NCBI GenBank assembly: GCA_963930775.1
Contig: OZ005696.1
Location: 2,108,001 to 2,172,000, forward strand
Length of the DNA stretch: 64,000 nucleotides
From: Cliona cf. orientalis
Taxonomy: Eukaryota; Porifera; Demospongiae; Clionaida; Clionaidae
Direction: 5' to 3'
The position numbers and the translations under genes are program-made. Positions 24,525 to 54,352 of this stretch are shown one piece after another. The notes beneath the pieces were generated by a model. The model did not search any database, was not told the origin of the DNA, and was given only the letters and a program-made list of their open reading frames with translations. How positions within the stretch are numbered: position 1 is the first letter of the stretch; each line of letters begins with the position of its first letter.

Positions 24525-24728
24525 AATCAGGATGATCAATCAGTGTCTGAGTAATGAAAGAAAAAATAAGCGATTGGTCTAGTTACTCTTTCAATTTTTT
24601 GCTAGTACATGTATAGATTTACTTGATTAACCTTCAGCGAAGTTCAAAGGCTGGCACACCCACTTATCTGCATCACATGATAAGTGGGTGGGGCTCGTTC
24701 TTCTACGCGCATGCGCCCGAAGGCTATT
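24525..24728. promoter_or_regulatory. Bidirectional promoter between TRIM-NHL copy 2 and TYSND1
   Basis: A 204-base divergent gap. It contains gggtggggc (GC-box/KLF-like) and the palindrome GCGCATGCGC at 24707-24716, only 13 bases before the TYSND1 ATG. The same arrangement was duplicated in front of TRIM-NHL copy 1. Function is inferred from position. Confidence 0.45.
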
Positions 24729-31809: not shown

Positions 31810-34639
31810 ATGATCGAAGCTATTCTTAGGTGTGTATATCAAACAAAATTGCTGAGAAATTGTTAAATGTTGAGTCATAGATAATTTAGACGTAGTCTAA
31901 ATTATCTATGGTTGAGTATACTTTGAAAGCTTCTCCGGTGGACGCCCTAGACCCTGAAACCATATAATATTATATAGAAACTATGCAGTATTATTAAATT
32001 TTAATATTTTTTGCATAGTTTCATCACGGTAGGTAGTGAAGTGGGAAATTTGCAATGAAAGGTAATAATGTACAGATCTGACAGTAGGTACTAGGCCTTG
32101 GCCAAGAATATTTATATTTGGAACAGTTGGATCGATTATTTTTACTCCTCTCCTGTGAGCTGAATCTAGCTATATTCTTTTCACATAATATATTATAATT
32201 TGTGTCAATATTCTCTGTTTCATACTGCAGGATTCTAGTAGCCTGGATGCCATTCCTAGGCAGGTTCTTTCCCGGCCATGCTGCGAGCGCCACGGGGGGC
32301 CAAGACGCAGCGGACCATGACCTCCCAGCTGCCCGGGTGGCTGTGATCGGTGCAGGTGTGGGAGGATGCTTTGCCGCTAACTTCCTCCGAGAGCTTGGTG
32401 GTCAAAAGCTCGAGATTCACGTCTGGAACAAGAAGGATAGTCGCATTGGTGGGCGTACGGCTACGACGGAGTTTGCCGGACACACGTTTGAGACGGGGGC
32501 TTCCATCATGCACTCCAGTAACAAGTACCTGGTTGATGCCGCAGACAAGTACGGTAAGCAGCAATTATAAAAGCGTAAATCTCTTTTTTATTTTTTTTTT
32601 GGTACGTAGTCAATTGCGGCTATGAAAATTAATCTTCGAAAAAGTATTTGCACTATGTTAATGTGGTAAGGGGTCTGAAAATGAAAATTTGTCACAAATA
32701 CATGGTTTGTATTTATCGTACTAGAGCGTTTATAAAACAAGGATGTCTCAAGAGGGCACTTTGGACGATTTGCTTTATTCCTTTGCTAGCATGCTAACAT
32801 TGCTTTGCAGTATTCTTAGTTTTAGTTGGTGGCCCATGCAAGGACATAATACTGAGGACTGGCAATAATGTATTATCGTAAATCTGGAAATTTTCGTTGT
32901 AAAAATATTTTCGTAGTAGATGGCGGCTACGAAAATTAGCATGCACTATTAATGCTAATGGGGTAAGGGGTCATTCCCACGAAAATTTTTTTACGCGAAA
33001 ATTTCCAGATCTACGGTAATACAAAATTTTGTAGCTATTAAATTTTGGTGTATTAGTGACCTTACCCCAGACCTGAGAGGTCTATCCATAGACCCCATTC
33101 CCAGCCTTGTGTGTGTCGGAGACTGGGAACGAGGCTATTCCCAGCCTTACAAAGAGGAGAACAGACCACTGATTGGATACATTAATTTTAATATGGTAGA
33201 ATATGCATAATAATAATATTTTTAGCTACATGACCTTTCCTACCACCAAGTGTCCCTGGCTGGGATTAATTAGCAGTGTTGTGGTGAGCATCCATATTAA
33301 CTTTTTATGAAGCTTAGAAGGGCTTAGTTCACATTCTTGTATGCATGTAACTATTCAGCAATTTTCCAGGCTTTTTACATGTACACATGTACATGTACTT
33401 GTAACTCTATCCTCGTTGAAGTGCTCATATTCAAATTCGGTATACTACTTACATGTAGGTTTGGTAAAGAAAGGAGAGCTAGATCCCAGCACACCTATCG
33501 GAATTTTCAACGGTAAAACCTTCTCATTTCGAACGGGCACCTCAAAGATCATCAACCTCTTCAGGACCCTTTGGCACTACGGCTGGAGCATCGTTCGAAT
33601 GAACTTTGCCGTCAAAGCAGAATTGAAGAAATTCAAAACCATCTACACCCTGCAAGAAAACGGGAAATCCTTTGCCAGTGCTCCAGACTTGCTCAAAGCC
33701 ATGGGCCAGGGAGGCGGCATGTACCCTCTCACCCAGATTACAGCCAAGGACCATTTCATCAATGGTCTAGGCTTGTCGGAGAGGCTAGTCGAAGAGTTTA
33801 TCATGAGTGCCATGACGGTGAATTACGGTCAGAGTGTGAACACGATAGATGCGTACACAGCCTACGTATCGCTAGCCGGGGTGGACGATGGGTCACTATG
33901 GAGCGTGGTGGGCGGTAATTGGAAAATCCCCGCCAAGGTTCTAGAAGCATCCGGAGCCACTCTTCACGAAGACAAAGTCACTGCTATCACACGTATCAGC
34001 GAGAGCAGCGGAAAGGTACAGTACAAGCTCACCACGGAGGCCGGTGGGGATGCTCCTGGTAATTTCGACGTGGTGGTTGTAGCCAACCCCCTCAATACAT
34101 CGAAAACAAAATTTGAAAACTTCACATCGGATCCATACACACCTGCCGCTACTACCCCCTACCACCGCACTGTGGCAGAGTTCATCCAAGGTCGAATCAA
34201 CACCGAATTCTTTGGCGTATCGGGAAACGACAGAAATTTCCCTACCACGATCCTCACGGCTGGAATGGAGGGAGCGCCATTTCCTTTTTGTAGCGTTGCA
34301 GTCGAGGTTCCTTCAGAAATCACTCAAGACCAAGTGAGAGATTATACAAAACCGATCACCGAAGAGCCCGTTCGAGTTTGGAAGGTGTTCGTACCAGAGC
34401 CTATGACCGAGGAACAGAAAGAGGCGATGTTTAGCGAGATTAAAGCCAGGGCGACATTTGATTGGCTAGCGTATCCGGAGTACAAGCCTCCCGAGGAGTT
34501 CCCTCCATTTATTCTCGATGATGGGGTGTTTTATATCAACGCGATAGAAAAGGCGGCCAGTGCGATGGAGATGAGTGCTATTGGAGCTAAAAATGCCGCT
34601 CTCCTTGCTCGAGAATATCTGCTCAAATCATCTGACTGA
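31810..34639 (+). CDS. PCYOX1: Prenylcysteine oxidase (PCYOX1-like)
   Basis: Exons 31810-31829, 32231-32553 and 33459-34639 join in phase to 507 residues (human PCYOX1 is 505). A hydrophobic N-terminus (MIEAILRILVAWMPFLG) serves as signal peptide. Next come the FAD-binding Rossmann motif VAVIGAGVGG (~43-52), the matching acidic strand end EIHVW and RIGGRT. The family's C-terminal lyase domain follows (GGGMYPLTQ, SLAGVDDGSLWSVVGGNWKIP, DVVVVANPL, PFPFCSVAVEVP, FYINAIEKAASAMEMSAIGAKNAALLA). The enzyme oxidises prenylcysteine released from degraded prenylated proteins to a thiol, an aldehyde and hydrogen peroxide, in lysosome or lipoprotein. Assignment to the family is firm; the split between PCYOX1 and PCYOX1L is not made. 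The first 20-base coding exon is assigned from the phase-2 junction. Intron 2 carries a MITE (32871-33021). Confidence 0.88.
32871..33021. repeat. MITE-like palindrome, AAATCTGGAAATTTTCG family, copy 1
   Basis: Ends are tatcgtaaatctggaaattttcg-type on the left (split: tatcgtaaatctgg, aaattttcg) and cgaaaatttccagatctacggta-type on the right (cgaaaattt, ccagatctacggta). A second copy is at 37107-37299 (gene A intron). About 150 bases, in intron 2 of the PCYOX1-like gene. Confidence 0.7.
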
Positions 34640-35352: not shown

Positions 35353-38191
35353 TCAGAGACTGTCATAGTTCCTGTACTTGTATTCTGCTCGTTCCCTGCT
35401 TTCGTGCTTGCGCAGTCTCAGGTACTCTACGATAATGAACACCAACAGAGTGATACATGTCACACACGCCAGGAGAGAGCAAGCCTGCACAGGATAAGCA
35501 CAATATATTATTCTGTGTGTAGCAATTTACAATGATGCATGTACTTAGTTTCACAGGAGTGACCAAAGTAATATTATTATATGAATTCTGAAGTACTAAG
35601 GCTAATCTTTATTTTTAATTGCTTGGTTAGGTAACTTACAAATGCTACAATTTTTCTGTGTGCCCATCAACCCGACCTACAAGCACAGCATAGGTAAGGG
35701 TCGTCAGAGCACAAAATCACCACCCATACTATTGTGTGGGTACCCTTAGTTACATGTAGGGAGGAATAGCCTCGTGCCCATCCCTATTCACACCTTTTCA
35801 CATTCTCGTGCCCATCCCTATTCCCAGCATTTCAATGTGAAACGTGACGTGTGCTGTTCTGTTGGTGTTCAATGTGAAAAGGTGGGAATAGGGATGGGCA
35901 CGAGGCTAGGGAGGAACAAGACAAGGGTCTACAATTTTCGTCACGGATCTGTGACTGCTGTAAACATGTTACATAGCAGGCCCGTATGCAGCCTTTCTCA
36001 AAGGGGGGTTACACGGGGGCGTGGCTCAGATAGGTATGATGTTAGCCCACAGCCCACGTAGGGAGGGTCTGGGGGCATGCTCCCCCAGAAAATTTTGGAA
36101 ATTTGGACTCTTTGAGGGAAATTCTGAGGCATTCTGACAGTGATTTACAATTCCAGATAGGCTGATGCTGCTAGCTACTATAACATTAACACTGGCTATG
36201 CAATCTATTGCACATGCGGTGTGCGTTATTCGGAAAGCAACATTCGGCTTTGCTTAGCTGTGTAAAGAAGCATGTAAGTTACACCTAGATTGTTTCTAGT
36301 GTTACGCTAGGTGGCCAAAAAAGCGGGGTTCGTCCGAATCCCCTCGAACCCCCCCTGTGTACGGGCCTGCATAGACCTACAAGTGCTACTTAATTTTGCT
36401 TTTAGCACCTGCATCACATTGGAGTAGATATATAAGGCATGCCGCAAACATCAGGGGTGTGTGTGTGTGTGCTCTCAAAGTGGTCTGTAGTCACTTACAG
36501 TTGTGGCGATGAGGTCTTTCCTTATGTTCCTGATGAGGCTTATGTCAATGGCTTTGAGAATATCATTGCTCCAGTCCTTCACGGTGAACACTCCCAGCAC
36601 CCCAGCAGCTAAATAGCCAAAGATGGCAAATATAAGAAGTATCACGTCCTAAAGGAATAATTATGTTCATAACGCAATTAAATGACAAGTGTGGGCTATA
36701 ATAAATTATAATAATCATGAAGTAGTGTAAAAATGAGGAATACAACATCATCATGTACCGTATTTCTTCTAATTATTCGGCACCCTTTACCGAATGATTG
36801 AAAGTAGTCTCTAATTTTCGGCAAAGGTCGTCATGCGTATATGCTATAAACGGGAATAGAATGCGTACGCAGACAGAATATCTCTAAAAATTCGGCGAAG
36901 CTAAAGCAATGTTATTATTTTCATGCCGAATTTTTAGAAGAAATACGGTATCTGTTGTACATTAATTTTAAGCTTTTGCTGGATATTCGAAGTTACATGA
37001 CATTGCATAAAATTATAACAGTGATTCTGAAACAAGCAAATAAGATACACAGGACATGTACATGTACAATGTCATTTATATGCTTGATAAACTCTAGGGA
37101 ATGGGTATATCGTAAATCTGGAAATTTTCGTTGTAAAAATATTTTCGTAGTCGATGGTGGCTACGAAAATTAATCTTACAAAAATTAGCATGCACTATTA
37201 ACGCTAATACGGTAAGGGGTCGTTCCTACGAAAAAATTTTTACACGAAAATTTATCATACGAAAGTTTCTTTACACGAAAATTTCCAGATCTACGGTAGT
37301 ACAACGAGACTAGTAAAACTGGGCATGTAACTCAAAACAATCTTACTGTAGCAACGAAGAGTTTCCTGCAGACACCGAGGTTGATCTTAAAAAGACTGAT
37401 GATAATCATGATCATCCCAAGAGGGATGATCAGACTTGATACGATCGGAATCACCACAGTAGCAAACGCTCTCGTGCGGATATCATCACTGATATGGTCA
37501 ATCTGGTCAATCAAGGAAGCGTTGTTCCGTAGCTCCAGGATGTTGTCAAAGGACAACCCAGCGGCCACCACAGCTCCTGCACACACCAACTGAATGGGAA
37601 TTAATTCATGACTAGCGTTAATATAATAATTATGTACATGTAGATGCATGTCTATACATGTACACAATATTATACGTATACACGAACTTTGTGGTTTGGG
37701 AAGGGGGTGGGGCAGTGCTAGTGTTTGTTATATAGACTTGGCGGATAGTGCCAAAATCAAGCACGTACATGTACATACACCACACCCTGGTCTCTGGGGC
37801 AGTAGAACTCAATTAATACATGTACATGTATCACAGGTTTAGTGTCTTCATGGTACATGCATGTACCTCAAATATATTATAACTCTAACGGCCTGTGATT
37901 ATTTATATTGTGACTGAACTATACAATCTGAACCACTGAGAACCTATGGGAGAGACTGCAGTGTGAGAACCATCAAGTCACAGGCTAGCCTCGTACCCAT
38001 TCCGGGCCGCGACCTGGGTCCGAGGCTAGTCACAGGCGTGCTTATAATCACAGAAGAAAATGTCTACTCTTTGGGGAAAGCTTTAATAAACTGTGGCGCT
38101 GGTGCTATGTACAGAACTCCTCCCCCAGTGATTAACTCACCATAGTAGCGGCCTGAGCGCCAATTTCCAAGAGTTGAGTCTTCGTCGACAT
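35353..38191 (-). CDS. Four-span membrane protein, tandem family member A (MARVEL-like layout)
   Basis: Exons, in transcription order: 38191-38141, 37589-37347, 36648-36499, 35484-35353. All introns are phase 0; 191 residues. Exon 1 encodes MSTKTQLLEIGAQAATM. Exon 2 carries span 1 (LVCAGAVVAAGLS), an extracellular or luminal loop with an NNAS sequon, and span 2 (FATVVIPIVSSLIIPLGMIMI). Exon 3 carries span 3 (DVILLIFAIFGYLAAGVLGVF) followed by KDWSND. Exon 4 carries span 4 (ACSLLACVTCITLLVFIIVEY) and a charged cytosolic tail RLRKHESRERAEYKYRNYDSL (written here as RLRKHESRERAEY and YRNYDSL). The DWxxD after span 3 and the overall layout resemble synaptogyrin/MARVEL proteins. This is a structural resemblance seen by eye, not an established homology. 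The other four members follow at 38493, 43005, 44883 and 46421. Confidence 0.8.
35768..35912. repeat. Palindromic element ending CTAGCCTCG/CGAGGCTAG
   Basis: The left arm tagcctcgtgcccatcccta and the right arm tagggatgggcacgaggcta form an inverted repeat of about 145 bases, with acaccttttcacatt and aatgtgaaaaggtggg inside. It lies in gene A intron 3. Related ends occur at 37983-38030, 46708-46777 and 59345-59889. Confidence 0.65.
35978..36372. repeat. Palindromic element ending GGCCCGTA/TACGGGCC
   Basis: About 395 bases with inverted ends caggcccgta and tacgggcctg, and internal aaggggggtt / aaccccccct complementarity. Non-coding, in gene A intron 3. Confidence 0.6.
36756..36951. repeat. MITE-like palindrome, TTCGGC family, copy 2
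   Basis: Ends taccgtatttcttctaat and ttagaagaaatacggta. It closely matches 12356-12586 but lacks about 35 internal bases. It lies in gene A intron 2. Confidence 0.7.
37107..37299. repeat. MITE-like palindrome, AAATCTGGAAATTTTCG family, copy 2
   Basis: Same ends and interior as 32871-33021 (shared ttttcgtagt, gatggnggctacgaaaatta, ggggtcgttcc), with about 40 extra bases near the right end. It lies in gene A intron 2. Confidence 0.7.
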
Positions 38192-38357
38192 ATCTACCTG
38201 GGGCCCACTTGGATGAGATATTGACACTCTATATAGATCTATAACAGCTCAGGCTTGAGAGCTGAATTGAAGCGGTGCTCCCAAATCTGTCACGGATCAG
38301 AGTCGCCACGCCCAGGCCCAATGAAGGTCAAAGTGTACGTGTGTGACTGGATTACAC

Positions 38358-38367
38358 GCGCATGCGC
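38358..38367. promoter_or_regulatory. NRF-1-like palindrome upstream of four-span gene A
   Basis: GCGCATGCGC about 167 bases upstream of the gene A start codon, in the short gap before gene B's 3' end. Confidence 0.4.
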
Positions 38368-38492
38368 AATGATTGGTGCACCTAAATGATATGAATGCTC
38401 GATCAATAGCCGAAACACATTTACGCAGTCTATGATCCAGACAAAATTAATAATATACATGACATCATAGATCTACTATTAGTCACATTGAG

Positions 38493-41400
38493 CTACAGTC
38501 CAGTATATCCAGCATGTTCACGACATTTCCTTGACAACTTTGAAACCAAGAAGACAGCGAATATCACACACAACCCACATGAAATCAGCGATAGAACCTG
38601 TGGAAATAACAGACAACTGATGAATAAAAATTTTAATGATTACATGAATGTATGTGTTCACACTAGTTTAAGAATTTATACAGAAAGACCTTTTAGCACA
38701 GCTCCACCTAAAGCAGCAAATAGTGTGTTTAAATTGGTTAGTATTATAGTCTCAATTACCCTTTCCATGCTTTTCAACGTTCAATAATTTATACAGCATT
38801 GGGAAAGTGTCCTGGGAGGAGGCTACATGTACAATCATGGTGTAATAATAATAATACCATATGGTGGGTAATTTTTCATGGGATGCTAATTTTCATTATT
38901 TTTGTGGTTGATTTGGCAGTCATGAAATTTTCCCACCCACAAAAATTAATGCCTACATAAGTCCATGATGATGGGTGTGGCCACAAACATCGTGGCAGCG
39001 CGGCTAACATTTCCCAGTGCTAGCAAGCAACAGTAGCCACTGTCATCCCATAGGTGTAGCTACCTATACGGCCAGTACGGCTATGGCCGTACCACATTTT
39101 GGGCCTAGATCTTCCCATCAGCTCTGGCACAACAGCCAGGTCAGTAGCTCAGTGACAAATATTATTACTGATAATCGATGACTGGCAGCTACTAGCTGTT
39201 CTCATCACTACCAACCTTCTTTGTACAGCCAGCTACCTTCGGGAACGCGTTTATTATTAGGGGCATGGTCAACATTTGGGGGTCGTGGCTAAAAAAATTG
39301 CGCGCGCGCTCTGCACGCAAAGTGTGCCGTACCACATCAGATTTGCTAGCTACGCCACTGCATCCAGCTGATAGCGTCTTCAATTGACACTAATATTCTT
39401 CTATCTCATGCTATTTGTCCAAGTATGGCTTAGTAACAAAGAAGATCGCGAGTGAGATCGAGTGCGTGTATCGATTACATCATCACTTGTGCAGTGCCAT
39501 GCCGCTGGAATGGTTGCTGTCACGAAATTTAAAACCATGAAAATTAATTTTGAGGGCCTTTTCGGACTTTCCACGAAAATTAGCACCCATGAAAATTACC
39601 TGCCATAAGTTATTATTATCAGTTGAGACATCTGGGCTAGTTCCCTGCACTGATAATAATTATCATGATGGACAATTCACATACCATAGCATGACATCAT
39701 TAAAACCACAATAATAATAATACTATCTGTATCCCCATCAGACAGGGCACTTATTGAACAAAGAATTAATACAGGTGGTGGTTAGATTACAGTGATTATG
39801 ACATTGCATGTGATGTGCTCACAGCTCGTAAAGAAAAAGTAGGTAGTGTGACCTAGATAATAGTACGGCTTAAGCCCTCTATAATAATATTATAGATGAG
39901 GGCTTAAGACGTGCTATTATTAATGACATGCATGACTGAATCTTAACGCCTACCGTAGTGGCAACTGTAGATTTCTTCATAGCCACCAAGATATTGCCAT
40001 ATTTCTGATATGCAGGGTTCTGCACATAGTTGTCGTCCCAGTCAGTGTTGCTCAAGCCTCCTAGCACTGCCGCCGCCCCAAAGGCACATGAGAGGAAGAG
40101 AATGAACAATAGATCCTGTATAATAAGCAAGGAATACATGACATTACTGACTAGAAATAATTGACAATGACTCTATAATATATATACTGTACAATGTTAC
40201 TATATAGCTGTGGTTCTTATAATTCGGCCTCGTCCCCAGGCCCTTCCCAACTTTTCAATAATAATAATAATATATGAGATTGTCGAGTGTGTAATATTAA
40301 AAAGCTGCAGGGAAGGTCTGGAGATGAGAATGTATCAAAAGTAGCTAGTAGCCTTGTACCCATGACTGTAGCTACATAGCTGCAGGTTTCTATAATATTA
40401 TACTGCCACAGCTAGAACTTATGATTACTTGTAGCCACATACATGACATTGTATTATTATTGTACATGTACGTACCAGAATAGTGGCAAGCGACTCTAAG
40501 ATTCCTGAAAATTTCATGTCCTTGATAAGATAGAGCACAATCATGATGACGGTCATGCCAATTCCTTCTGCGATTGTGATCACACTGGCAGAGATGGCAA
40601 CAGCAGCAGTTGCCTCTGTCTTCACCAGAAGTTCATCTTTAATCGTGGAAGAAAGGTTGGTGTTGTGCTTGATGTCCAGCAACTTGTGGCGTGTGAAACT
40701 TGCCGCAATGATTGTTCCTAGACAAAGTGTCTGCATAGGCGTAGGAAGATATTGTTCAAAGATCAAGGGGCCCCAAGACATGTGATGATATGCAAAGCAC
40801 ATGCATCATTTCCACCTTGCTCATGATAAATCTTATTTCCATCAATGAGGCATTTATGAGAGGTAGGGAAGGGGTTACTAGGCATGTACATGCATGAGCA
40901 GTACATTAAAAGTCAAGCAGAGCACACTTTAAATTTATTCATAAAGTTCTATGCATGTTATCATTCGTGGTCAGGCCCACCATGCATGCCTGGCCTGTGC
41001 TGATCTCTATGTTGGACAGGTTGCATTTTGGTTTCTACGGCACAGCTAGATGTTTAGATATGAGTACACAAAATTGCCAAGATATTAACACATACGATGT
41101 AGACTTGCAACCAGTAATGATTATTTTTGTAGCGGAGGGGGGGGGGGGGAGGATGACTATGCATCCAATTCTTTATTATAGACATGAATTCAGGTAATGA
41201 ATATCAAAATCAACTTGAGGTCAACGTATGTGCTTTTCCCTACTTTTAACTGTCCCCTGTGCTCGTCCCTGAACACTCGACTAGCATTAGAACTTGATTC
41301 AGAGAGTTAGGCAAGCGCCCATTCCCGGGAAAGCACCCATGCACTGGGATTGGCAATGTAGCAGCTTCTACACAAAATACAATTTATATCCCAGATAAGT

Positions 41401-42167
41401 ACCCATGCATGCTGGCCAAACGTGAGTGTTATGTTTAAGTGTTTAAGGAATACTACAGTATCCCACAAGACACTTGATGCTTCTTATATATTTAGGTACA
41501 GTTTAATCCTGATAGTCAATTGATTATGTTACCGTATTTACTGTAATTTAAGCACCAGGAAAAAAATAATTCCGACCTCGCTTGGCGCTTACATTTAAGC
41601 ATTAAAAACTAGCTTCGATGGCGAATGGCGCTTAGTAATAACAGTAGCGTGTGGTACATAGTACTGCATTGTAATTACTAAGCGCCACCTAAAAATAATT
41701 CCATCGACGTTTGGTGCTATATTTAGAAGGGAAAAAATACCATAAATGGCCAGATGGCGCTTAAATTACAGTGGCGCCTAAATTACAGTAAGTACGGTAA
41801 ATGAACTGTAGTCCTGATAGTCCTGGCAAATTGATGATGTTAAATGAACTGCATCAGTAGAAGGTGGAACGATTTTCAAAGTATGCCCAAAATCTGACGG
41901 GTGATTTGATGATTCAATGTTTAGTTACTGACAAATTATGGGATAAAAAAGGTAAAATCTTAACGGGGGCACAGCATAGCTACTATCCATGCATGGCTCC
42001 AGGGAGAGCCTGGCATGGAGGGATCCTCAGGATGGAGGGATATATCTGGTGCAACACAATTGAAGGTGAGGCACACTGAAGCATGCACTCAGAATTTAAA
42101 ACTTATTATGACTTACCATGGTGAAGATCCTGATAAGGATTTCAAGGAGTTTGCTTGTCAGCGTCAT
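38493..42167 (-). CDS. Four-span membrane protein, tandem family member B
   Basis: Exons, in transcription order: 42167-42117, 40730-40476, 40115-39954, 38597-38493. All introns are phase 0; 190 residues. Exon 1 MTLTSKLLEILIRIFTM has the same length as gene A's and closely resembles exon 1 of gene D. The spans are LCLGTIIAAS (end of span 1), AVAISASVITIAEGIGMTVIMIV, DLLFILFLSCAFGAAAVLGGL (followed by TDWDD) and VLSLISCGLCVIFAVFLVSKL, with a short tail RKCREHAGYTGL. The KTEATAAVAI segment before span 2 is shared with gene D. The frame is open upstream of the chosen start (another ATG about 40 codons earlier), but exon 1 length in the paralogues favours this one. The assembly gap begins 162 bases upstream, so promoter sequence is missing. 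Confidence 0.78.
38857..39610. repeat. Palindromic element, apparently split by nested insertion
   Basis: The left end (accatatggtgggtaatttt, tgctaattttcat) and right end (aaaattagcacccatgaaaa, ttacctgccata) are roughly complementary. Some 500 unrelated bases containing a second group of repeats (tacggccagtacggcta, ccgtaccac) lie between them. It sits in gene B intron 3. Confidence 0.4.
41529..41801. repeat. MITE-like palindrome with ACCGTA ends, GGCGCTTA family
   Basis: Ends taccgtatttactgtaattt and aaattacagtaagtacggta, with internal tggcgctta/taagcgcca pairs. About 270 bases in gene B intron 1. Confidence 0.7.
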
Positions 42168-42328
42168 GATCCCTGCCTCAGTTTTGCTTGCAGCGCGGTG
42201 CTTTCCCTTTTTGAGACCACAAAGAACACGTGACGTGATGTGTGACATTACGTCATATGCAAAGCCGTGGCGCATGGCGCCAGCGTGCGAAATATACGCA
42301 TGCGCAACACGCGAATGCACAATCATAC

Positions 42329-42528
42329 NNNNNNNNNNNNNNNNNNNNNNNNNNNNNNNNNNNNNNNNNNNNNNNNNNNNNNNNNNNNNNNNNNNNNNNN
42401 NNNNNNNNNNNNNNNNNNNNNNNNNNNNNNNNNNNNNNNNNNNNNNNNNNNNNNNNNNNNNNNNNNNNNNNNNNNNNNNNNNNNNNNNNNNNNNNNNNNN
42501 NNNNNNNNNNNNNNNNNNNNNNNNNNNN
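42329..42528. other. Assembly gap (200 N)
   Basis: Exactly 200 undetermined bases, probably a fixed-size placeholder. It falls between genes B and C, immediately upstream of gene B's putative promoter, which has CGCATGCGC at 42297-42305. Confidence 0.99.
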
Positions 42529-43004
42529 GTATTTGGCGAGATGCTGTTTTTTAGATACCAATTAACGCCAATTTTCAACAAACTTTTGGTTAAATAAAAC
42601 AATTCTTGGATCCAAGAATTATAGTACGATTGTATTGCCAACAAATCCAAACCCAGTCACCGCCTAATCTTATCGTTGGCACTGATTTAATGGCTATGCC
42701 TTTCAATACCCAGCCAGGATCCCACCACTCCATGCATGCATTCCTAAATTACTAGTTGAATACGTGGAGACACTGCTCATGCCAAGAATCAAGACCGATA
42801 AAGTAATGATCATTGTTTTAATAGTCCAATAATATAGCTATAGTAACTTGAATATTGCACAGAGCATGATACTGTTGTATGATAGCCACTAGATAGCATT
42901 CTACAGTGAGAAGATTCACTCAAATCAATCCAATGTACAGGCATTAAATAGAAGTGACTTAAATTGTGCACGTGAAAGCTAGAATGTATTACTGATGATT
43001 AATT

Positions 43005-44178
43005 TCATGACTTTGCAATGTAGTCCAGGTTCTTGGACTTCACCAATAACAACAAAACAAAGAAGAATAGAGCTGTACCAGACCCAAAAGCAAGGAATGA
43101 CATTGCCTATAGGAAAAAAATCAGCAACCATAAGCTCAAGATTTCCAACAAAATTATCAATAATTTTAGTAGCTATCGGTGTAAATTATCATTATTATAG
43201 GCTTTACTCACAGCAGTAGCTGCCATGCCATTTCTTATGTCGATGACTTCACTAGTAGCAACATCAATATTGAAAGGAAAAGCAATGGGTACGTTACGTA
43301 TTCGGTCCAGGACATCGTCACTCCAGTTTTTGGCGGCGATAGAAGCCAAAATTCCAGCTACACCAAATCCAGCGGTAGCAAGGAAAATGACTATGACATC
43401 CTGATAATGAATGGAAATAAAATCAGATTCTATTAATATAAATTTTCCCTTCCGCTATTATTAGCTCGCTAGAAATAACATAATATCTAAGCTACAGTAT
43501 AATGTTATATATAGGCTGGCCCATAAGATGACTATACAATAATTCTTGCCAGCAGGTACGTGCCTTATAATTTTTGAGTTTGGGAATTTAAGATCATAAT
43601 AATGTTATTGCGAATCTTTGAATTGGCTCCATTTACCATGGGGCACACAAATCCTTGGTATGGGTTGATGACACCTGAAGTTCAAACTAGTTGCATGTGC
43701 ATGCTGTCAATGACTTACCATAATAGCAATAATTTGGGCAAAGATGCCCAGCTTCTTCAGTTTGAGCAGACGCAGCACTATCATGAGACACTCCATCGGG
43801 ATGATCAATGCTGGGACAATTGCCATAGCAGCTGCAGCAGCCGTTGTCTGAAGGAGATCTTTGCTCGCCACGTCAATGATGCCGGTTACTATGTCACTGA
43901 ATGGACCGTTGGTTATGTCCATAAGCTCGTCCAGAGAAATGGCAGCAGCAATTAAAGCTCCTATACTCAGAACCTGAATGAAATTACACTAGTATATACC
44001 ATGCATCTTTAAGCAAGATAAAATTCCTAGGATTGCTAGCTACTTCACTATAACTAATAATGTTCCAAGTGTCATGCCGGGATAATAATATTCACACAAT
44101 TAATCATAAGAAAAATTAATTTGCACTTACTATTACAAGTATCCGAAGAACAAGTTCAATGATCTTTTCCACTGACAT
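43005..44178 (-). CDS. Four-span membrane protein, tandem family member C
   Basis: Exons, in transcription order: 44178-44131, 43973-43719, 43400-43212, 43106-43005. All introns are phase 0; 197 residues from MSVEKIIELVLRILVI, or 200 if the in-frame MAI codons at 44187 are used. The spans are VLSIGALIAAAI (span 1), AAAAAMAIVPALIIPMECLMIVL, DVIVIFLATAGFGVAGILASI (followed by KNWSDD) and AMSFLAFGSGTALFFFVLLLLV, with a very short tail KSKNLDYIAKS. The exon-3 loop is the longest of the family. Cytosolic ends are short, so any function probably lies in the membrane or the loops. Confidence 0.8.
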
Positions 44179-44882
44179 GATGGCCATCTCAGCTCTTCAG
44201 TGATTCAGAAGTGATTTTTCTACTAGTAACAATGTGCTAAATGAAATTTCATGCAAAAAGTGAGCTATTTAATGCTATAAAGGAGGCTATCCTATGATAC
44301 TGATTTGGTACTCAATGCAAACCTCCCACATGCATGCTATAGCTGTGCCAAATTGGCACATTGTGATCCAACTTTTTTCAGTCCACCCAGCCTCAGACTG
44401 CCACACAAGTTCAGTATTATTAACACGTATGCAAACACATGGGTCTCGGTGTTTGGATGCAGGCAGTTAAGGTCTATACCGTCACTAGTCTGGTGGTGTG
44501 ACTAAATTACTGCAGTGGGTGGTGTCTTTGATCTTTAGTATACAATGTCATGTAGCCAATTGGACAATTGATAATTATTAACAGGTGTTTATTGATCCCG
44601 AGTTCATACTTGAACCGTGAGTCAACGCTACAGGCAAGCGTTCCTAAAAATATTATGAATGTACAATAATATTATTAAACAGCAAGCACTAATGCAAGCA
44701 GTGCAAAATTGGTATGCACAAATTCAGCAGACAAAAATACCTGCGCATGCATAATAATAATATTATGCACGCTTAAATGTACAGAATCAGTATAAGAAAA
44801 TACATTGATTTAGTGATTAATAGCACTCAATGATTAAACAAGGCTGAAGCTGGAATGCACGCCAGGCAGTTTTTACTAGTTT

Positions 44883-46049
44883 CTAAATTCCAGTATAATC
44901 AAATTTGTTATGCTTCACTAGCAGCACAATTATGAGGAACAGAAGTGCAGCACAAGATCCACAAGCAAGCAGTGAACAAGCCTACAAATAACATAAGTTA
45001 TTAAATAAGTTAAGACTGCTATTATGAGGTGTTATTATCAATAACAATGTCATTGGCTAGCTCTACAATAATATTATTCACTCACAGAGGTAGCAGCAAT
45101 ATCTGTTCTGATGTCTCTAATGTCTCCAATGTAGGGTTGAAGACTAGAGGGTACAGGGTCGACATAATCCTCTGTCCAGTCTTTAGCTGTGATGGCCCCC
45201 AACACCCCAGCCACTCCAAATCCACCAGCAGCAAGAACAACAAATAGCAGGTCCTAAAATTCAGTATATATATATAATACATGCAGCATGTATATAGTGA
45301 AATAAGGTCACCCCTTTAATGATTGTGCATATCTAGTCCCAAAATAAGGTCACCCTTTTAGTTCAGAAAACACCACGATCGGCTTTTGCTCCTGACCTAA
45401 TATGGAGAAGGTTACTTGTTTGTGGAGGACAGAGTCACAGTCCACAGTGAAGGTCACATTGAGATAATACAGCCGAATTGTACCATAGCTAATAATCATA
45501 ATCGTGACACTTAATGTGATGTGGTTCCAAAGGCCGGGACATGTTCATGCACAAGATTTCCACCATGCACTTCACAGTAGCTAACTTTATGTAACAGTTA
45601 CATAATATTATTATCCTCTATGACAGCTCAGATTATAGTTTTGTAGCTACACAAACCAGGATGACTATGAGCCTTCCCAAAGCGCCAAGACGGATCTTAA
45701 AGAGTCGTAGTAGGATGATGATAACTCCCATTGGAATGACCACACCCGCAGCGACTGCCAGAGCGGCTGTGGCCTCTGTCCTGGTACGAATGTTGTTCTG
45801 ATGAACATTATCATCAAAGAATGTAAGTATAGGATATAAGACATCATTGTTTTTGATATCCAGCCACTTATCAATGGAGATAGCGGCGGCAACCACAGCT
45901 CCCGCACAGGCAATCTGAAATATGAATTATTATCCACAGTTATAGCTAAATCAGCCTGGTTCAGTGATGCACATTGTACTTAGAGGCTGACCTACCATGG
46001 TGAAAATCCTAACAAGGATTTCAACAACCTTGAGCCTATTCATTGACAT
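44883..46049 (-). CDS. Four-span membrane protein, tandem family member D
   Basis: Exons, in transcription order: 46049-45996, 45914-45657, 45253-45086, 44981-44883. All introns are phase 0; 192 residues. It starts MSMNRLKVVEILVRIFTM. The spans are IACAGAVVAAAISI, AALAVAAGVVIPMGVIIILL, DLLFVVLAAGGFGVAGVLGAI (followed by KDWTEDY) and ACSLLACGSCAALLFLIIVLLV, with tail KHNKFDYTGI. Exon 2 uses an uncommon but acceptable donor (gtttgt). This is the most regular member and the best model for the family. Its ACSLLAC span-4 start is shared with gene A. Confidence 0.82.
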
Positions 46050-46420
46050 GGTAAACCTTCTTGTCCCAGTTGATAGCAGCTACTTGATGATATTCTGTAG
46101 CTAATCTGACTGTTAGCTGGTCTACAAATTAATTGCTGACTGATAACAGCTGGACTCTTCCATATTAGGCTATACTACTATGTTAAATGCAACATGTGAC
46201 CATGGTGCATTCCCACGTCTTATCCACATTGTCCCAATGCTATATTTAGCACTTGATCACCTAAAATTATACAAGACTACATACACAGTATATAATGCTA
46301 TGCTTTTAGCACTGATTTAGAATAACATAATTGAAAAAAAAATACTAACTATCATAAAAACACAGAATCAATAATTTTTTTTATTATTATGGAGATGTTT
46401 TCTTAATAGATATCTTGAGG

Positions 46421-46628
46421 TTAAATGGCTGACTTGAGTGTCTCTTTGATGAGCTTATCATTCCACTTTTGAATGAGGTAGTACATCATCCACAGCATCA
46501 CAAAACAGAGGAGCAGTGTAGTGAACAAACATGTGCCCTGAGGTGTAAACGGAATATTATGATGATAAAGAACGTGAGAGACGAGAGAGAGAGAGAGAGG
46601 GGGGGGGGGAGAGTGAGAGAGAGAGAGG

Positions 46629-46660
<32 letters not shown>

Positions 46661-49316
46661 GGACTCGGAGGAAAGAGAGAGATATAGGAACACATGCACA
46701 CTATACTAGCCTCATCCCCAGGCCCCTCCCAATATTATGGGGATCGAGCATTGGGAATGGCTTGAGGACGAGGCTAGCATAATTATTTATAGCATACTTA
46801 CAGCTACTGCAGCAGTCACTTTTGTTAGATCAGCAGCAGTGGAGTACTCATTGTCCACTTGCCCCCATAGACTGGCCATGTAAGCTGACAGAATTCCAGC
46901 GATGCCAATTCCCGTAGCCAGTAGAAAGTTCACAATGATATCCTGCATTATTAAGAAGTTTATGATGGTCATCTAGCTAGCTTGATGTACATTGTATAGT
47001 ATAAAATTAATCATTTCCAATAAGAGCTCTTCCTAATCTCATCCTCTGATAAGGAAAGGAGCCTGAGGTCTCTAGTATTGGTGATTCTATAATCTCTGCT
47101 GACGGTCATAAGCTACGTTTTTATTATATGAACATGTACACTACAGTAGCAGCCACAAGCCTACCATATATGGGCATATAGCAGTGGTGGTGGTTGTTAG
47201 GCAATGCTCGTTACTTCTACAAGCAAATTAGGCCAGAATCCTAATTATAGATGTATAGATGATATGCTTTACTGATCACAATAATATTGTTATAGTCAAG
47301 TCTGTAGCTACATGTCGTATATAAGGGTTCTATAAGGAAAGCTCTGTTTATATATAGCCATGCAAGCCTGTTTTTATACAAGTTGTAATAGCATTGTCTT
47401 CGCTTACTATAATATACATGTAGGCTAAGCCTGTTCTAAATGTTACAGTGTAAATGAGGCATCAGTAACTGCAAGAAACTTTCAGAGTATTTCCCTTCAT
47501 CCCCAGCTACACTTTTTGAATTAGTCTGATCTTATGATTAAGAATAATGAATGTGGTTCCTCAGAAGCCAGTTATAGAAGCACACATTAGCCCAAATATG
47601 GCTGGGCAGAGGTGTCTATTGGCCAAACATGGTAACTGGCACTAAGCTTGTTGATTAATGTAAGTATGGCACACAACATGTTTGTCTATTGATAGAATCT
47701 GAACACACACAAAAGGTACTGTAAGTTGCTATAATATTATAGAGAACGTACACTATGCCACAGTCTATGAGTCTGCAACATTGGTCACATTTGATCCCGG
47801 TCGCGGGTACGTGTCAGTATAGCAGGTAATATGTGACCACCCCTTGCATTGTGTACTTATGTTATATTTGTGCATCTGTGTATATATACGAATGTGAGAT
47901 TGTGTACACACTGGCAAGTGCACGTGCTATGTATATTCACTCACTATAGACAGAAAGATCTTGCTCTTGGCATTGATCAGGCCAAAGTTTAGAAATCTGA
48001 CGACAATTACAGCAATCCCAAGGAATATCAAGAGGACGGACACGGCAATACCAGTTCCAGCTCCGGCCTGGGAGTTAAACTGGAGATCCCGCTCTGTGAG
48101 GCCGTCCACTAGATCTCGGTTGGGGGGAGAAGAGATATCACCTTCGGGGAAGGTTAGCAGAGCTTCAAGAGCAACTGCTGAAGCAACAAGAGATGCTAAA
48201 CCTCCAACCTGTGAACAACACAAGGATAAAACACATAGCAAATTAGAGCTCATAGAGCACATACCCCGCGTGCCATGGCAATATCGTCCATGGCCATGCC
48301 TCTTGTTAGAGACCTCTATTCTTTGAAATTTAATCTCTTGCTACTCATGAACTTTTTCGTTCCCTTCTGAGATCCATGATCACAAATGATATTAATTTTG
48401 CGCTAGAAGTATGCTGTAGAGCAGATCGAGCATGCACAGTAGACTCCCTAGATTAGCTCGAGTATATATATGCGCAATAGACTTCATGTGGTACTACTAC
48501 CCTAGTAGGTGGGCGTGTCCGATATACTCGCACGATTTGTAGCTTCTCTGGATCTCTTGCTACTCATGAACTTTGTCGTTCCCTTCTGAGGTCCACGATC
48601 ACAAATTTTGAGCTGGAAGTATGCTGTAGAGCCGTTCGAGCATGCGTAGTAGACTCCCTGGAAATAGAGAGCAGCTCGAGTATGCGCAATAGACTTTAGG
48701 AGGTACTAGGTGGGCGTGTCCGAAGTAGGCGTGTCCGACATACTCGCACGATTTGTAGCTTCCCTGGGTATTGCCTAGTGTTAAGAATGAGACGGAAGGT
48801 GTTTTTTCGCTGTCTTACATCATTTTATCCTATTTATTGATCCTACTTTTGCCTAAATGTTGAGATTTGCCGATTTTTGTGCGGACAGACAACAGACGAC
48901 AGACAAACCGATTGCTTTACCCCCTGCTGCGCATGCGCGCACGCGGGGTAAAAATCTATATGCCTCAAGACTACAATCCCACCAAATTAGATATTGTGGG
49001 TGATAGGTTTCACAGCTCACAGCATAGCGTCTAGGCCTATGTTATTAAAACATTCATTTTATTCTATGATCAATACTTACAGTTCACTATACGTTAAAAA
49101 AAAAACAACTCTACAATAATTTTATGTTATTCACATGTCCGTATGATCAGCTGATCTAGGCTATTCTTATCAGAAGACACAACAAATGTCACTTAGTACT
49201 TGGCTACTCACCACCACCAGTCCTCTTAGGACAATCTCCACCGATCCCTGCCAGAATTTACAGATGTACGGTCCAGGACGCGGGCCCAGAGCAGCCTTTG
49301 CAATCGTATCAGCCAT
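46421..49316 (-). CDS. Four-span membrane protein, tandem family member E (divergent)
   Basis: Exons, in transcription order: 49316-49212, 48208-47945, 46942-46802, 46537-46421. All introns are phase 0; 208 residues. Exon 1 is longer than in the paralogues (MADTIAKAALGPRPGPYICK then FWQGSVEIVLRGLVV). The spans are VGGLASLVASAVALEALL, GAGTGIAVSVLLIFLGIAVIVV, DIIVNFLLATGIGIAGILSAYM and GTCLFTTLLLCFVMLWMMYYLI, with tail QKWNDKLIKETLKSAI. The DW motif after span 3 is replaced by LWGQVDNEY. Intron 1 contains a large repeat (48246-48955) and intron 3 a GA-rich tract and a palindrome. It is the oldest-looking member, at the upstream end of the array. Confidence 0.78.
46582..46690. repeat. GA-rich low-complexity tract
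   Basis: About 100 bases of imperfect (GA)n with G runs, in gene E intron 3. The long open frames across it on both strands are artefacts of the dinucleotide repeat. Confidence 0.85.
46708..46777. repeat. Short foldback ending CTAGCCTC/GAGGCTAG
   Basis: The left arm tagcctcatccccaggcc and right arm ttgaggacgaggctag are complementary over about 20 bases. It belongs with the repeats at 35768 and 59345, in gene E intron 3. Confidence 0.5.
48246..48955. repeat. Repeat element with internal tandem duplication
   Basis: Ends carry taccccgcg and cgcggggta, as in the element at 17436-17805. The interior has two consecutive copies of about 210 bases (roughly 48340-48557 and 48558-48768). Each copy starts atctcttgctactcatgaac and ends cacgatttgtagcttc. 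No protein is encoded. It lies in gene E intron 1. Confidence 0.7.
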
Positions 49317-49551: not shown

Positions 49552-50763
49552 CTAGGCATTATAAACTAGTTCACGAAGAGCCTGGAGATTACTGGCTTCA
49601 AACACCCCTCTCTCTGTGATGATCCCTCCAGTAATGAGCCGAGCTGGTGTCACATCAAAGGCAGGGTTCCAGCAACCAATACCCTCTGCAGCCACCCTTT
49701 TTCCACCAATACACAGCATCTCCCTACTCGGCCGCTCTTCAATGGTAATCTCCTCACCAGACTTAAGTCCAAAGTCAATAGTGGTAACCGGTGCCGCTAT
49801 ATAGAAAGGTACTCCGTGGTGCTTTGCAGCAATGGCCAACTGATAGGTTCCTATTTTGTTGGCAGTATCTCCATTAGCTACGACTCGATCAGCACCCACG
49901 ACTACTGCGCTTGTCTTTTGTCGCTGCATTAGCAGAGCTCCCATTGAGTCGCAGATCAGAGTCGATGGGATCTTATCGTGGACAAGTTCGTAAGCTGTCA
50001 ACCGAGCTCCTTGGTTGTATGGTCTCGTTTCTGTGCAATAGACGTGTTCTAGTCTACCCATACTGTGCAGGCTTCTAATGACTCCTAGAGCAGTTCCATA
50101 GCCCCCTGTGGCAAGAGAGCCAGTATTGCAATGTGTCAGAATGACTGCTTTTTCTGTTTCTGGCACATTTCGCAAAATGTGCTCTGCTCCGTGATGCCCC
50201 ATTGATTTATTAGTAGCGATATCTTCACGAAGAATGGATTCCATTTCTTGAACGAGTGCATCACGTGCTTGAGAAACAGTTAGCGAGGTGGACAGGCAAT
50301 TTGATTCCATATCTGTAGCTTTTTTGGTATACCTCTCAGCTGCTTCGGCAATGTTCACTGCTGTTGGGCGAGCCGTTTTAAGATAGTCAAACTTGGACTG
50401 AATAAATTTCTTCAAGTGACATGCTCCTTGTTCTCCTTCTTCAAGCTTCATAGCTCTCAGCGCCACAGCAACGCTCAAGGTACCTACAATGGCAATGGCA
50501 GGTGCTCCTCTCACCTGAAATATTCATATACCATAGATAGTAGATTTTTTTTATTTATATAGCATATACTAGGCAATGACTAGCGGTGGTATCAAATAGA
50601 TCTAGTTAAGAAATTATGATAATCTAACCTTCATTGAACGAATGGCCTCCCAGGCTTCCTGTACTGATGTGATATGTTCATAGACGGACTGAGCAGGAAG
50701 AAGCAACTGGTTGAGTATCTCCAGTCGCCCTTCATTGTACTTGATCGCCTCCAAAGCCATCAT
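49552..50763 (-). CDS. MRI1: Methylthioribose-1-phosphate isomerase
   Basis: Two exons (50763-50629 and 50514-49552), 365 residues, starting [12 protein letters not shown]. The protein converts 5-methylthioribose-1-phosphate to methylthioribulose-1-phosphate in the methionine salvage pathway, in the cytosol. Visible family signatures are [36 protein letters not shown] with the catalytic Cys, [40 protein letters not shown] with the catalytic Asp, and [20 protein letters not shown] at the end. Length and order match eIF2B-related MtnA/MRI1 enzymes. It is divergent from the polytopic protein gene at 51086, about 320 bases away. A truncated duplicate follows at 53311-54352. Confidence 0.95.
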
Positions 50764-51085
50764 GCCAACATGCCAACATGTGATGGAAGCCACACCCACA
50801 TCACCTTGCGTTGGCACATTGCGCATGCGCGATGATGCGCGGGAAAACCGTGACACTGGAATCAGCAAAAATTTTGGGAAAGATAACCTTCATCAAAGAA
50901 ACTAATGTACACAATAACTACTAAGTGGTAAGTGCTTGATTGATCGGTCTGTGCTTCCTATTGAAATCTATTATAACTATGTGGTTTCTCAATTTTCTTT
51001 GTATATAAGTATTTATGCCCAGATTTTAGGTAGCAAATCAGTAGACTTAGTGGACACTATCGTGTGGAGCTGTTATATTGCAGTA
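50764..51085. promoter_or_regulatory. Divergent promoter, MRI1 / polytopic protein copy 1
   Basis: A 322-base head-to-head gap with GCGCATGCGC at 50821-50830, repeated at 54402-54411 in the duplicated unit. A ttatattgcag directly before the polytopic protein's ATG could be the acceptor of a 5'-leader intron, and the adjacent gtaagtgc at ~50930 a donor; this is unproven. Confidence 0.4.
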
Positions 51086-52972
51086 ATGTTTGCCGAGTAT
51101 CCCTGTGTGATCATGCTAATATTAGCATTATTTGTACAAAGTGCTATTGGGAATCTGCACTTGCTTGAGACAACCAATACAAGCAACGGTTTAGATTGTG
51201 ATAAATTCTTACATGTCAATGGATCGTCACTTTGTCCACCGTGGACCATTTTCAACGAAAATAAATCAAGATGTGAATGTGGTGATAGCATTGGGTTTGT
51301 TGTACATTGTTGGATGGCAAAGTGTACACCATTCAGGGCCACGCCAATAACACTCCGACTTGCTGAATGCTACTGTATGTCTTACATTGAGAAATTTGAT
51401 ATGGAAGTTGTGGGAGCTTGTCCCTACCTCTGTACAATGCAATTTAGTACCATACCTAAAAAACGTACTAAGCTGAACAACATATGTAATTTTCTTGTTC
51501 ATCAAAACAGAACTGGTGAGCTATGCGGACGATGTTTGGATGGTTATTCTCCCTCAGCATATTCTTCAGGACTTCAATGTGCCAACTGTTCTAATTATCA
51601 GAGAAATTGGATAAAGTACATTGCCATTGCCTATTTGCCAGTTATTCTGCTATATGTGGTTGTACTACTGTTTAGGATTAATGCACTATCTGCACGAATG
51701 ACTGTCAGTATCTTCATTTGTCAAATTCTTTCCTGTCCACCTATTGCTACCATTACAAGCATCTACTTTAGCACTGATATGAGCCACAGTAGCAACCAGT
51801 TGAGCAGGTTTTTGCATAACCACTATGAAGTTGTTCAAGGATCTCTCAAGTATGCTAACTTATTTTATGGAGTGTGGAATTTGGATTTTTATCGATATTC
51901 GTTTGAGCCCCTCTGTCTCCATCCCGACATGTCAACACTACAAGTCCTTTCCTTAGACTACCTAATAGCGCTCTTTCCTATTCTGCTAATTGCCATAACT
52001 TTCTTCATGGTTAAGCTTTACGATCGATTTAAACTGGTACAATATTTTTGGCAACCCATAATTCGACTGAAAACTTTCCTGAAATTGGGTAAGCTAAAAT
52101 TCGATTTAAATGTTTCACTTATTGAGACTTTTGGAACCTTTATGTTACTCTCTTATATCAAAGTAATCAACAGTTCATTGAGTATACTCATGCCAGTACG
52201 TGTTAGAAATGTAACTGGATACACACTGGGAATTAATGTGTACTACAATGGCTCACAGGAGTACTTGGGACGTGACCACCTTCCTTATGCAGTATTAGCC
52301 ATCTTCATGTTCACCACATTTAATCTACTGCCTCTTTTATTGCTTTGTCTCTATCCCTGTCGATGCTTTCAGTCCTGTCTTAACTGCTGTCGACTCAACA
52401 GTCAGGTGCTGCGTACCTTCATGGATGCTTTTCAAGGCTGCTACAAGTTTGAGCCCTACGACTGTAGATATTTCTCAGGCTTCTACCTCTTTTTGAGAAT
52501 CATCATCCTCCTTTTATTCTATTGCGAACTTCCTTCACGCTTCTTCTCTATTACATTAGGAATGCTTATGCTTCCTGTAATCTTTTTGCTCTCTGTTGTA
52601 CGACCTTACCGGAAGCCATTTATAAATGCAGTTGATATCAGTCTATTGTTAACGTTTGTCCTCTTTTGCTTCTCAGTTTCTTTAACCATTTTATCTTCGG
52701 GTAGCTACATCTTTTTACTAGTATCAGTTGTCCTGATTGCCATTACGTATATGACTCCACAATTCTACATGTTGGCAGTTGTAGCCTATTCACTTCTTCC
52801 AAAGAAACCCTGTCGTTCCTTTGTGAAGAATTGTCACAGGAGATTCGCAACTAGAAGTGGCATTCAGAGATCTGACTACTATGTGACCGATGCTTCTGAA
52901 GGAAGCCCCTTACTGTGTGGCATAGACGATATCGGTGTTATTGAAGGCGATGATTGTGAAGAATTATCATAG
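51086..52972 (+). CDS. Polytopic membrane protein with Cys-rich ectodomain, copy 1
   Basis: Intronless coding region, 628 residues. I chose the ATG at 51086 because it opens a signal peptide (MFAEYPCVIMLILALFVQSAIG) and matches copy 2; the frame extends 50 codons further up. A Cys-rich ectodomain of ~165 residues follows, with N-glycosylation sequons and motifs CPPWTIF, CECG, CYCMSY, VVGACPYLC, CNFLVHQNRTGELCGRC and CANCSNY. About nine membrane spans come next (first WIKYIAIAYLPVILLYVVVLLF, split here as IAIAYLPVILLYVVVLLF). Conserved family blocks are GVWNLDFYRYSFEPLCLHP, LSLDYLIALFPILLIAIT, FMDAFQGCYKFEPYDCRY and RPYRK. The cytosolic tail is acidic. I recognise no named family; the layout suggests a receptor or channel-like surface protein. 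The third paralogue lies at 62030. Confidence 0.85.
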   Translation: MFAEYPCVIMLILALFVQSAIGNLHLLETTNTSNGLDCDKFLHVNGSSLCPPWTIFNENKSRCECGDSIGFVVHCWMAKCTPFRATPITLRLAECYCMSYIEKFDMEVVGACPYLCTMQFSTIPKKRTKLNNICNFLVHQNRTGELCGRCLDGYSPSAYSSGLQCANCSNYQRNWIKYIAIAYLPVILLYVVVLLFRINALSARMTVSIFICQILSCPPIATITSIYFSTDMSHSSNQLSRFLHNHYEVVQGSLKYANLFYGVWNLDFYRYSFEPLCLHPDMSTLQVLSLDYLIALFPILLIAITFFMVKLYDRFKLVQYFWQPIIRLKTFLKLGKLKFDLNVSLIETFGTFMLLSYIKVINSSLSILMPVRVRNVTGYTLGINVYYNGSQEYLGRDHLPYAVLAIFMFTTFNLLPLLLLCLYPCRCFQSCLNCCRLNSQVLRTFMDAFQGCYKFEPYDCRYFSGFYLFLRIIILLLFYCELPSRFFSITLGMLMLPVIFLLSVVRPYRKPFINAVDISLLLTFVLFCFSVSLTILSSGSYIFLLVSVVLIAITYMTPQFYMLAVVAYSLLPKKPCRSFVKNCHRRFATRSGIQRSDYYVTDASEGSPLLCGIDDIGVIEGDDCEELS

Positions 52973-53310: not shown

Positions 53311-54352
53311 GAAAGTCCAAAGTCAATAGTAGTAACCGGTGCCGCTATATAGAAGGGTATACTCCGTGGTGCTTTGCAGCAACGGCCAACTGATAGGTTC
53401 CTATTTTGTTGGCAGTATCTCCATTAGCTACGACTCGATCAGCACCCACGACTACTGCGCTTGTCTTTCGTCGCTGCATTAGCAGAGCTCCCATTGAGTC
53501 ACAGATCAGAGTCGATGGGATCTTATCGTGGACAAGTTCGTAAGCTGTCAACCGAGCTCCTTGGTTGTATGGTCTCGTTTCTGTGCAATAGACGTGTTCT
53601 AGTCTACCCATACTGTGCAGGCTTCTAATGCATGACTCCTAGAGCAATTCCATAGCCCCCTGTGGCAAGAGAGCCAGTATTGCAGTGTGTCAGAATGACA
53701 GCCTTTTCTGTTTCTGGCACATTTCGCAAAATGTGCTCCGCTCCGTGATGCCCCCATTGACTTATTAGTAGCGATATCTTCACGAAGAATGGATTCCATT
53801 TCTTGAACGAGTGCATCACGTGCTTGAGAAACAGTTAGCGAGGTGGACAGGCAATTTGATTCCATATCTGTAGCTTTTTTGGTATACCTCTCAGCTGCTT
53901 CGGCAATGTTCACTGCTGTTGGGCGAGCCGTTTTAAGATAGTCAAACTTGGACTGAATAAATTTCTTCAGGTGACATGCTCCTTGTTCTCCTTCTTCAAG
54001 CTTCATAGCTCTCAGCTCCACAGCAATGCTCAAGGTACCTACAATGGCAATAGCAGGTGCTCCTCTCACCTGAAATATTCATATACCATAGATAGTAGAT
54101 TTTTGATTTAAATAGCATATACTAGGCAATGACTAGGGGTAGTATCAAATAAATCTAGTTAGTAATAAAACTTATAGGGCAATTTCTTACTAAAGAAATT
54201 ATGATAATCTATTAAATCTTCATTGAACGAATGGCCTCCCAGGCTTCCTGTACTGATGTGATATGTTCATAGACGGACTGAGCAGGAAGAAGCAACTGGT
54301 TGAGTATCTCCAGTCGCCCTTCATTGTACTTGATCGCCTCCAAAGCCATCAT
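53311..54352 (-). pseudogene. MRI1: MRI1 duplicate: truncated, frameshifted, splice donor lost
   Basis: High nucleotide identity to 49765-50763. Lesions seen directly: the last ~70 codons of MRI1 are missing because the duplication breakpoint is inside the coding exon. A four-base gcat insertion follows gcttctaat at ~53628. One extra C sits in the gatgcccccattg run at ~53754. The exon-1 donor GT is changed to AT (gaag|att at ~54217). Exon 1 and the first part of exon 2 are otherwise readable. No functional isomerase can be made, since the ADRV-to-end region is cut and out of frame with the active-site Cys segment. Confidence 0.93.

Follow-up and report, generated by a model that had tools for sequence, protein, structure and literature searches.

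The window analysed here, a stretch of 64,000 nucleotides of Cliona cf. orientalis DNA (assembly GCA_963930775.1, contig OZ005696.1, positions 2,108,001 to 2,172,000), contains five neighbouring genes on the minus strand, running from position 49316 down to 35353 and designated G5 to G1 in that order (Table 1). The five gene models comprise 20 exons and 15 introns; every intron has GT-AG borders and falls between codons (phase 0, 15/15), and the five reading frames all run from an ATG to a stop codon, with predicted proteins of 190–208 aa. Exon borders were placed by eye with the frame in mind and phase 0 is thus partly built in, the independent part of the models being the splice signals at the chosen borders. 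The reconstruction agrees with the initial annotation, which had described five minus-strand genes of four coding exons each with phase-0 introns.

Hydropathy profiles (19 residues, threshold 1.5) displayed four hydrophobic regions in each of the five proteins, some of them split or overlapping. As had been claimed, the spans occupy the same places in every gene: exon 2, of 243–264 bases, encodes spans 1 and 2, and exons 3 and 4 encode spans 3 and 4, respectively. The first residue of exon 3 is Asp in all five genes (DLL, DVI, DLL, DVI and DII), although the start D(L/V)(L/I) originally proposed for this exon misses DII. The motif [K/T][D/N]W after span 3, reported for four of the five proteins, was found in exactly that number, with SLW in G5. 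G3, G2 and G1 are 40–42% identical to G4, and identity of G1–G4 to G5 is 17–28%. A run of N at positions 42329-42528, upstream of G2 exon 1, makes that stretch unreadable.

Table 1. Rebuilt genes and exons of the array, in window coordinates.
Feature	Position	Strand	Basis
G5 gene	49316-46421	-	
G5 exon 1, N-terminal WQGSVEIVLR segment	49212..49316	-	rebuilt model; N-terminal motif match
G5 exon 2, spans 1-2	47945..48208	-	rebuilt model, hydropathy
G5 exon 3, span 3, Asp start	46802..46942	-	rebuilt model, hydropathy
G5 exon 4, span 4 and tail, with stop	46421..46537	-	rebuilt model, hydropathy
G4 gene	46049-44883	-	
G4 exon 1	45996..46049	-	rebuilt model
G4 exon 2, spans 1-2	45657..45914	-	rebuilt model, hydropathy
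G4 exon 3, span 3, KDW	45086..45253	-	rebuilt model, motif
G4 exon 4, span 4, with stop	44883..44981	-	rebuilt model, hydropathy
G3 gene	44187-43005	-	
G3 exon 1	44131..44187	-	rebuilt model
G3 exon 2, spans 1-2	43719..43973	-	rebuilt model, hydropathy
G3 exon 3, span 3, KNW	43212..43400	-	rebuilt model, motif
G3 exon 4, span 4, with stop	43005..43106	-	rebuilt model; stop codon seen
G2 gene	42167-38493	-	
G2 exon 1	42117..42167	-	rebuilt model
G2 exon 2, spans 1-2	40476..40730	-	rebuilt model, hydropathy
G2 exon 3, span 3, TDW	39954..40115	-	rebuilt model, motif
G2 exon 4, span 4, with stop	38493..38597	-	rebuilt model, hydropathy
G1 gene	38191-35353	-	
G1 exon 1	38141..38191	-	rebuilt model
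G1 exon 2, spans 1-2	37347..37589	-	rebuilt model, hydropathy
G1 exon 3, span 3, KDW	36499..36648	-	rebuilt model, motif
G1 exon 4, span 4 and longer charged tail, with stop	35353..35484	-	rebuilt model, hydropathy

The array genes belong to a larger, dispersed family. When single proteins were used to search the 217-Mb genome (149 contigs), exons related to the array genes were identified on C2, C3, C7, C13 and C16. Counting a locus if it was rebuilt or had an exon match at E ≤ 0.005, the family comprises at least 22 loci, since the counts obtained for large families are minimum values; several of these loci were counted from one or two exon matches, and broken genes may be among them. Five loci are on C8, three on C3 at 1336-1346 kb, seven on C3 at 1372-1388 kb, one on C2, two on C7, one on C13 and three on C16. 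Exon-4 matches at C3:1332594-1333063 and C3:1342695 were left out of this count, and a weak match at C7:8367699 was inspected and not accepted as a family member. The larger group on C3 forms a second tandem cluster (G000:C3:1372067-1387600), with seven exon-2 matches at E ≤ 0.005 and one rebuilt gene.

We rebuilt seven genes outside the window (C13, C16a, C16b, C3a, C3b, C3c and C3d), all of them (7/7) with the four-exon plan and introns between codons, giving 12 rebuilt members together with G1–G5. Borders were likewise placed by eye; C3c has a weak last acceptor (acceptor 3), and the fetched stretch ends within the last exon of C3d. A DNA pattern for an N-terminal WQG-x-[hydrophobic]-E matched the genome eight times, seven times in first exons of rebuilt genes and once on C4, while its reversed control produced no genome match; within the window, it matched G5 alone.

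The array is more than a product of chance, because the same plan recurs at the seven loci outside the window and the pair C3a and C3b has a dN of 0.19 and a dS of 0.98. These values point to constraint on that pair; the other five pairs compared had dS > 2 or were saturated. Among the 12 rebuilt members, exon 3 invariably starts with Asp and a Glu always precedes span 1 (12/12 for each), followed four residues later by Arg in 11/12 (Gln in G1). A Trp lies 25 residues past the span-3 Asp in all except C3d (11/12), and the N-terminal WQG segment is present in 7/12.

FastTree grouped G1–G4 in a single clade with a support of 1.000. The five genes are indeed neighbours, as the description of a tandem array of five implied, but they are unequal copies, with G5 falling outside this clade among the dispersed relatives; its exact place is weakly supported (0.130 with C13), and a translated search linked it to C13 with E 5.1e-5. 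As part of the explanation that we favour below, G1–G4 would have arisen by local duplication, with the neighbouring G5 being part of the dispersed family. Comparison of G1–G4 with a seven-member group (G5 and six relatives) using hhalign yielded a probability of 98.4% and an E value of 7.2e-15 over 161 columns.

The initial annotation likened the layout to MARVEL and synaptogyrin proteins and proposed a Pfam comparison, which we ran. In humans, MARVEL proteins organise the membranes of vesicles and of cell contacts. Taken singly, none of the five window proteins (0/5) showed a significant match to MARVEL (PF01284), which was listed for G2 (E 0.19, profile 7-135, 12.2 bits) and G5 (E 1.1); the scan of G4 listed nothing, and the best matches of G1 and G5 were, respectively, SHR3_chaperone (E 0.0048) and DUF6773 (E 0.0056). 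The MARVEL resemblance was nevertheless evident in the relatives, led by C3a (E 1.7e-7, profile 7-134 of 135, 31.8 bits, the best member), C3b (E 3.4e-7, profile 6-134) and C13 (E 5.1e-7, profile 28-131), with C16b further behind (E 0.003, profile 7-134). C3a and C3b are close copies and together amount to about one independent match. Altogether, MARVEL appeared at E ≤ 10 for 6/12 scanned members, being absent for G1, G3, G4, C16a, C3c and C3d, and its cut-off of 32.8 bits was reached by none of the 12. When C3a and C13 were locally shuffled, keeping composition and hydropathy, MARVEL was listed at E ≤ 10 in 0/10 cases. The best chance matches of these controls were to a phage coat family at E 0.018 and to SUR7 at E 0.029, and matches near E 0.003–0.01 therefore weigh little.

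Among 177,635 PDB sequences, the best match of the seven-member profile was synaptogyrin-1 (8a6m; E 0.011, profile positions 32-180), the next two (E 0.48 and 1.4) being unrelated; the profile of the five window proteins retrieved nothing at E ≤ 10. A direct MARVEL search of the genome, which sees single exons, gave only a synaptogyrin gene on C7 above the cut-off, and seven weaker matches, of which one falls in that C7 gene and another, on C5, was inspected without result.

Conceivably, the genes could be an unrelated four-span family whose MARVEL signal comes from common hydrophobic composition, since the window proteins' own MARVEL matches are insignificant and G1 and G5 match other families better. 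We consider this improbable, as the shuffled C3a and C13 sequences never list MARVEL, the relatives reach E 1.7e-7 over nearly the whole profile, and the family matches MAL in its invariant span-3 Asp and in two intron positions (see below). Judged from these sequence comparisons, a relationship of the family to MARVEL is very likely, with G1–G4 tied to it through their profile-profile match to the group of MARVEL-matching relatives. Because the best member scores 31.8 bits, below the cut-off of 32.8, we term the family MARVEL-related rather than an annotated MARVEL family, and treat the cut-off as a sensitivity threshold.

Tetraspanins and claudins have four spans like the family, and carry cysteine motifs. 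Pfam listed no claudin for any of the 12 members, including the five of the window, and a single, non-significant tetraspanin match (G1, E 0.98). Plant CASP and CASP-like proteins produced weak matches in family members: the CASP-like model TIGR01569 of NCBIfam in one of the five window proteins (E 0.0066), and CASP_dom in G3 (E 0.22, 11.7 bits) and C3d (E 0.38, 10.9 bits), scores far below its cut-off of 26.2 bits. Conservation has been reported between the CASPL and MARVEL families, the membrane spans being where conserved residues lie (PMC10675793).

As to the synaptogyrin part of the original comparison, the seven-member profile has its best PDB match in synaptogyrin-1, but by gene structure MAL is nearer. 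Like the family, synaptogyrin and synaptophysin (physins) carry an Asp within span 3 that is followed by a Trp. However, the synaptogyrin gene on C7 is separate from the family and matches MARVEL with E 1.5e-15 and PDB synaptogyrin-1 with E 8.1e-8. As we read it, this gene has an intron 8 codons ahead of the span-3 Asp, and its next intron falls within span 4. Exon 2 starts near MARVEL profile position 15 in both this gene and the family; a synaptogyrin intron plan for the family was dropped despite this similarity, because introns 2 and 3 differ. The hhalign comparison of the family with two joined exons of the C7 gene was not significant (probability 1.2% and 0.3%). The array might be read as expanded vesicle proteins of the synaptogyrin/synaptophysin branch, in line with the top PDB match, but such a match does not choose a branch, and the existence of a separate synaptogyrin with introns 2 and 3 elsewhere, together with the non-significant profile comparison, makes this reading improbable too.

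The coding sequence of human MAL is divided into four exons (31, 56, 42 and 24 codons) by introns that all fall between codons (PMC8145151). A MAL sequence of 153 letters, a length that agrees with PMC8145151, was aligned to the 12 members under four MAFFT strategies; the comparison covers, within the MAL family (MAL, MAL2, MALL, plasmolipin and CMTM8), human MAL, that is, one gene versus one family. In all four alignments, introns 2 and 3 of MAL, as placed on this sequence, fell in the commonest columns of the family, whereas its intron 1 lay 8 columns from that of the family. The commonest intron-2 column holds 12/12 members and the intron-3 column 11, 11, 11 and 9 of 12 across the four alignments. 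As a control, MAL was shuffled 100 times and aligned by one of the strategies with fewer iterations; intron 3 alone coincided in three cases, intron 2 alone in one and both in none. The span-3 Asp of every member (12/12) aligned with the Asp of MAL and that of the genome's own synaptogyrin in 4/4 alignments.

MAL resembles the family in its four spans, four exons, phase-0 introns, Asp at the start of span 3 and, in these alignments, the columns of introns 2 and 3. The Trp ending span 4 aligns with that of the MAL LIRW motif in 8/12 members, with a gap of several residues needed in span 4, which provides partial support for a MAL-like role; it is missing in G1–G4. Conversely, MAL has 153 aa versus 190–225 aa in the family, its intron 1 is displaced, and the WQG segment (7/12) and the Trp 25 residues after the Asp (11/12) are features of family members. 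Against the family profile MAL scored weakly, at 5.6 bits, and synaptogyrin reached only 4.0 bits. The family is nearer to MAL than to the genome's own synaptogyrin in gene structure, as aligned here, because introns 2 and 3 share the MAL columns and those of synaptogyrin lie elsewhere.

The explanation that we favour, and hold to be probable, is that the five genes represent an expanded, divergent MAL-like branch of MARVEL proteins, likely organising membrane patches or carriers. According to PMC8145151, MAL organises condensed membranes and requires a LIRW motif at the cytosolic face to partition into detergent-resistant membranes; PMC10352133 reports that synaptogyrin, together with phosphatidylserine, curves membranes and generates small vesicles. 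Beyond what was observed here (the gene models, the four hydrophobic regions, a single family, the remote MARVEL similarity of relatives and constraint on one pair), this literature suggests by analogy what topology, lateral assembly, membrane organisation and use among cell types the proteins probably have. Both protein ends would lie in the cytosol, and the proteins may associate side by side in the membrane; once assembled, they would gather a lipid-ordered or curved patch, which could turn into a vesicle carrier or into specialised membrane at the apical face or at cell contacts; cell types may differ in the copies that they use. For G1–G4, we hold the membrane-organising or carrier role with lower confidence, because they lack the LIRW-aligned Trp present in 8/12 members.

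The main rival to a MAL-like branch is that these are junction-type MARVEL proteins, doing the barrier work of vertebrate occludin and tricellulin, which the MARVEL similarity of the relatives would accommodate. Occludin and tricellulin have large C-terminal tails, whereas a long cytosolic tail is missing from all of the window proteins (0/5, 190–208 aa). The epithelia of freshwater sponges are sealed, although classical occluding genes were reported as absent from the Amphimedon genome (PMC2993944), leaving room for such a role; however, claudin-like proteins are noted in Porifera (PMC11128289), and a MARVEL protein is then not needed for a barrier. On balance, we regard the junction-type reading as unlikely.

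With the MAL-like reading, what is new is a divergent, expanded branch of a superfamily already known. A literature search on MARVEL domain evolution in sponges found no relevant title, which does not by itself show the family to be undescribed. A MARVEL-related family below the profile cut-off would escape counts of early-animal vesicle and contact tetraspans. Its members could be tested for a part in organising and sealing the cell layers of sponges, among which Amphimedon reportedly lacks classical occluding genes (PMC2993944), and the intron positions common with MAL would offer a marker of ancestry not resting solely on weak sequence similarity. We consider it possible, if rather doubtful, that an early-branching animal expanded MAL-type MARVEL proteins to more than 20 copies of its own and built its specialised cell membranes, perhaps its sealing contacts too, from them. 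If true, the MAL-type arrangement, in which one intron precedes the span-3 Asp and another lies where span 4 starts, would go back to the last common animal ancestor and predate the split of the vertebrate MAL, CMTM and junction branches.

The window also contains other genes on both sides of the array. Just past the end of G1, on the opposite strand, positions 33341-34639 (+) hold part of a prenylcysteine lyase gene (E 3.9e-93). At the other end, a gene at 49552-50514 (-) matches Pfam IF-2B (E 1.9e-82) and is presumably like methylthioribose-1-phosphate isomerase; a second IF-2B-type copy at 53599-54069 (-) is, by eye, near-identical over about the first hundred residues and then diverges, its frame ending early. 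Three similar large multi-span proteins of 595–678 aa are encoded at 50936-52972 (+), 54686-56578 (+) and 62030-63817 (+), the first two without a Pfam match at E ≤ 0.001, and together with the IF-2B-type copies they look like the result of local segmental duplication. Two similar adjacent proteins are encoded at 17876-20146 (-) and 22272-24539 (-); the former, which was the one scanned, contains RING, B-box, filamin and NHL-repeat domains (TRIM type). Finally, an open frame of 1078 aa at 1675-4911 (-) shows similarity to UvrD helicases (E 4.5e-6).
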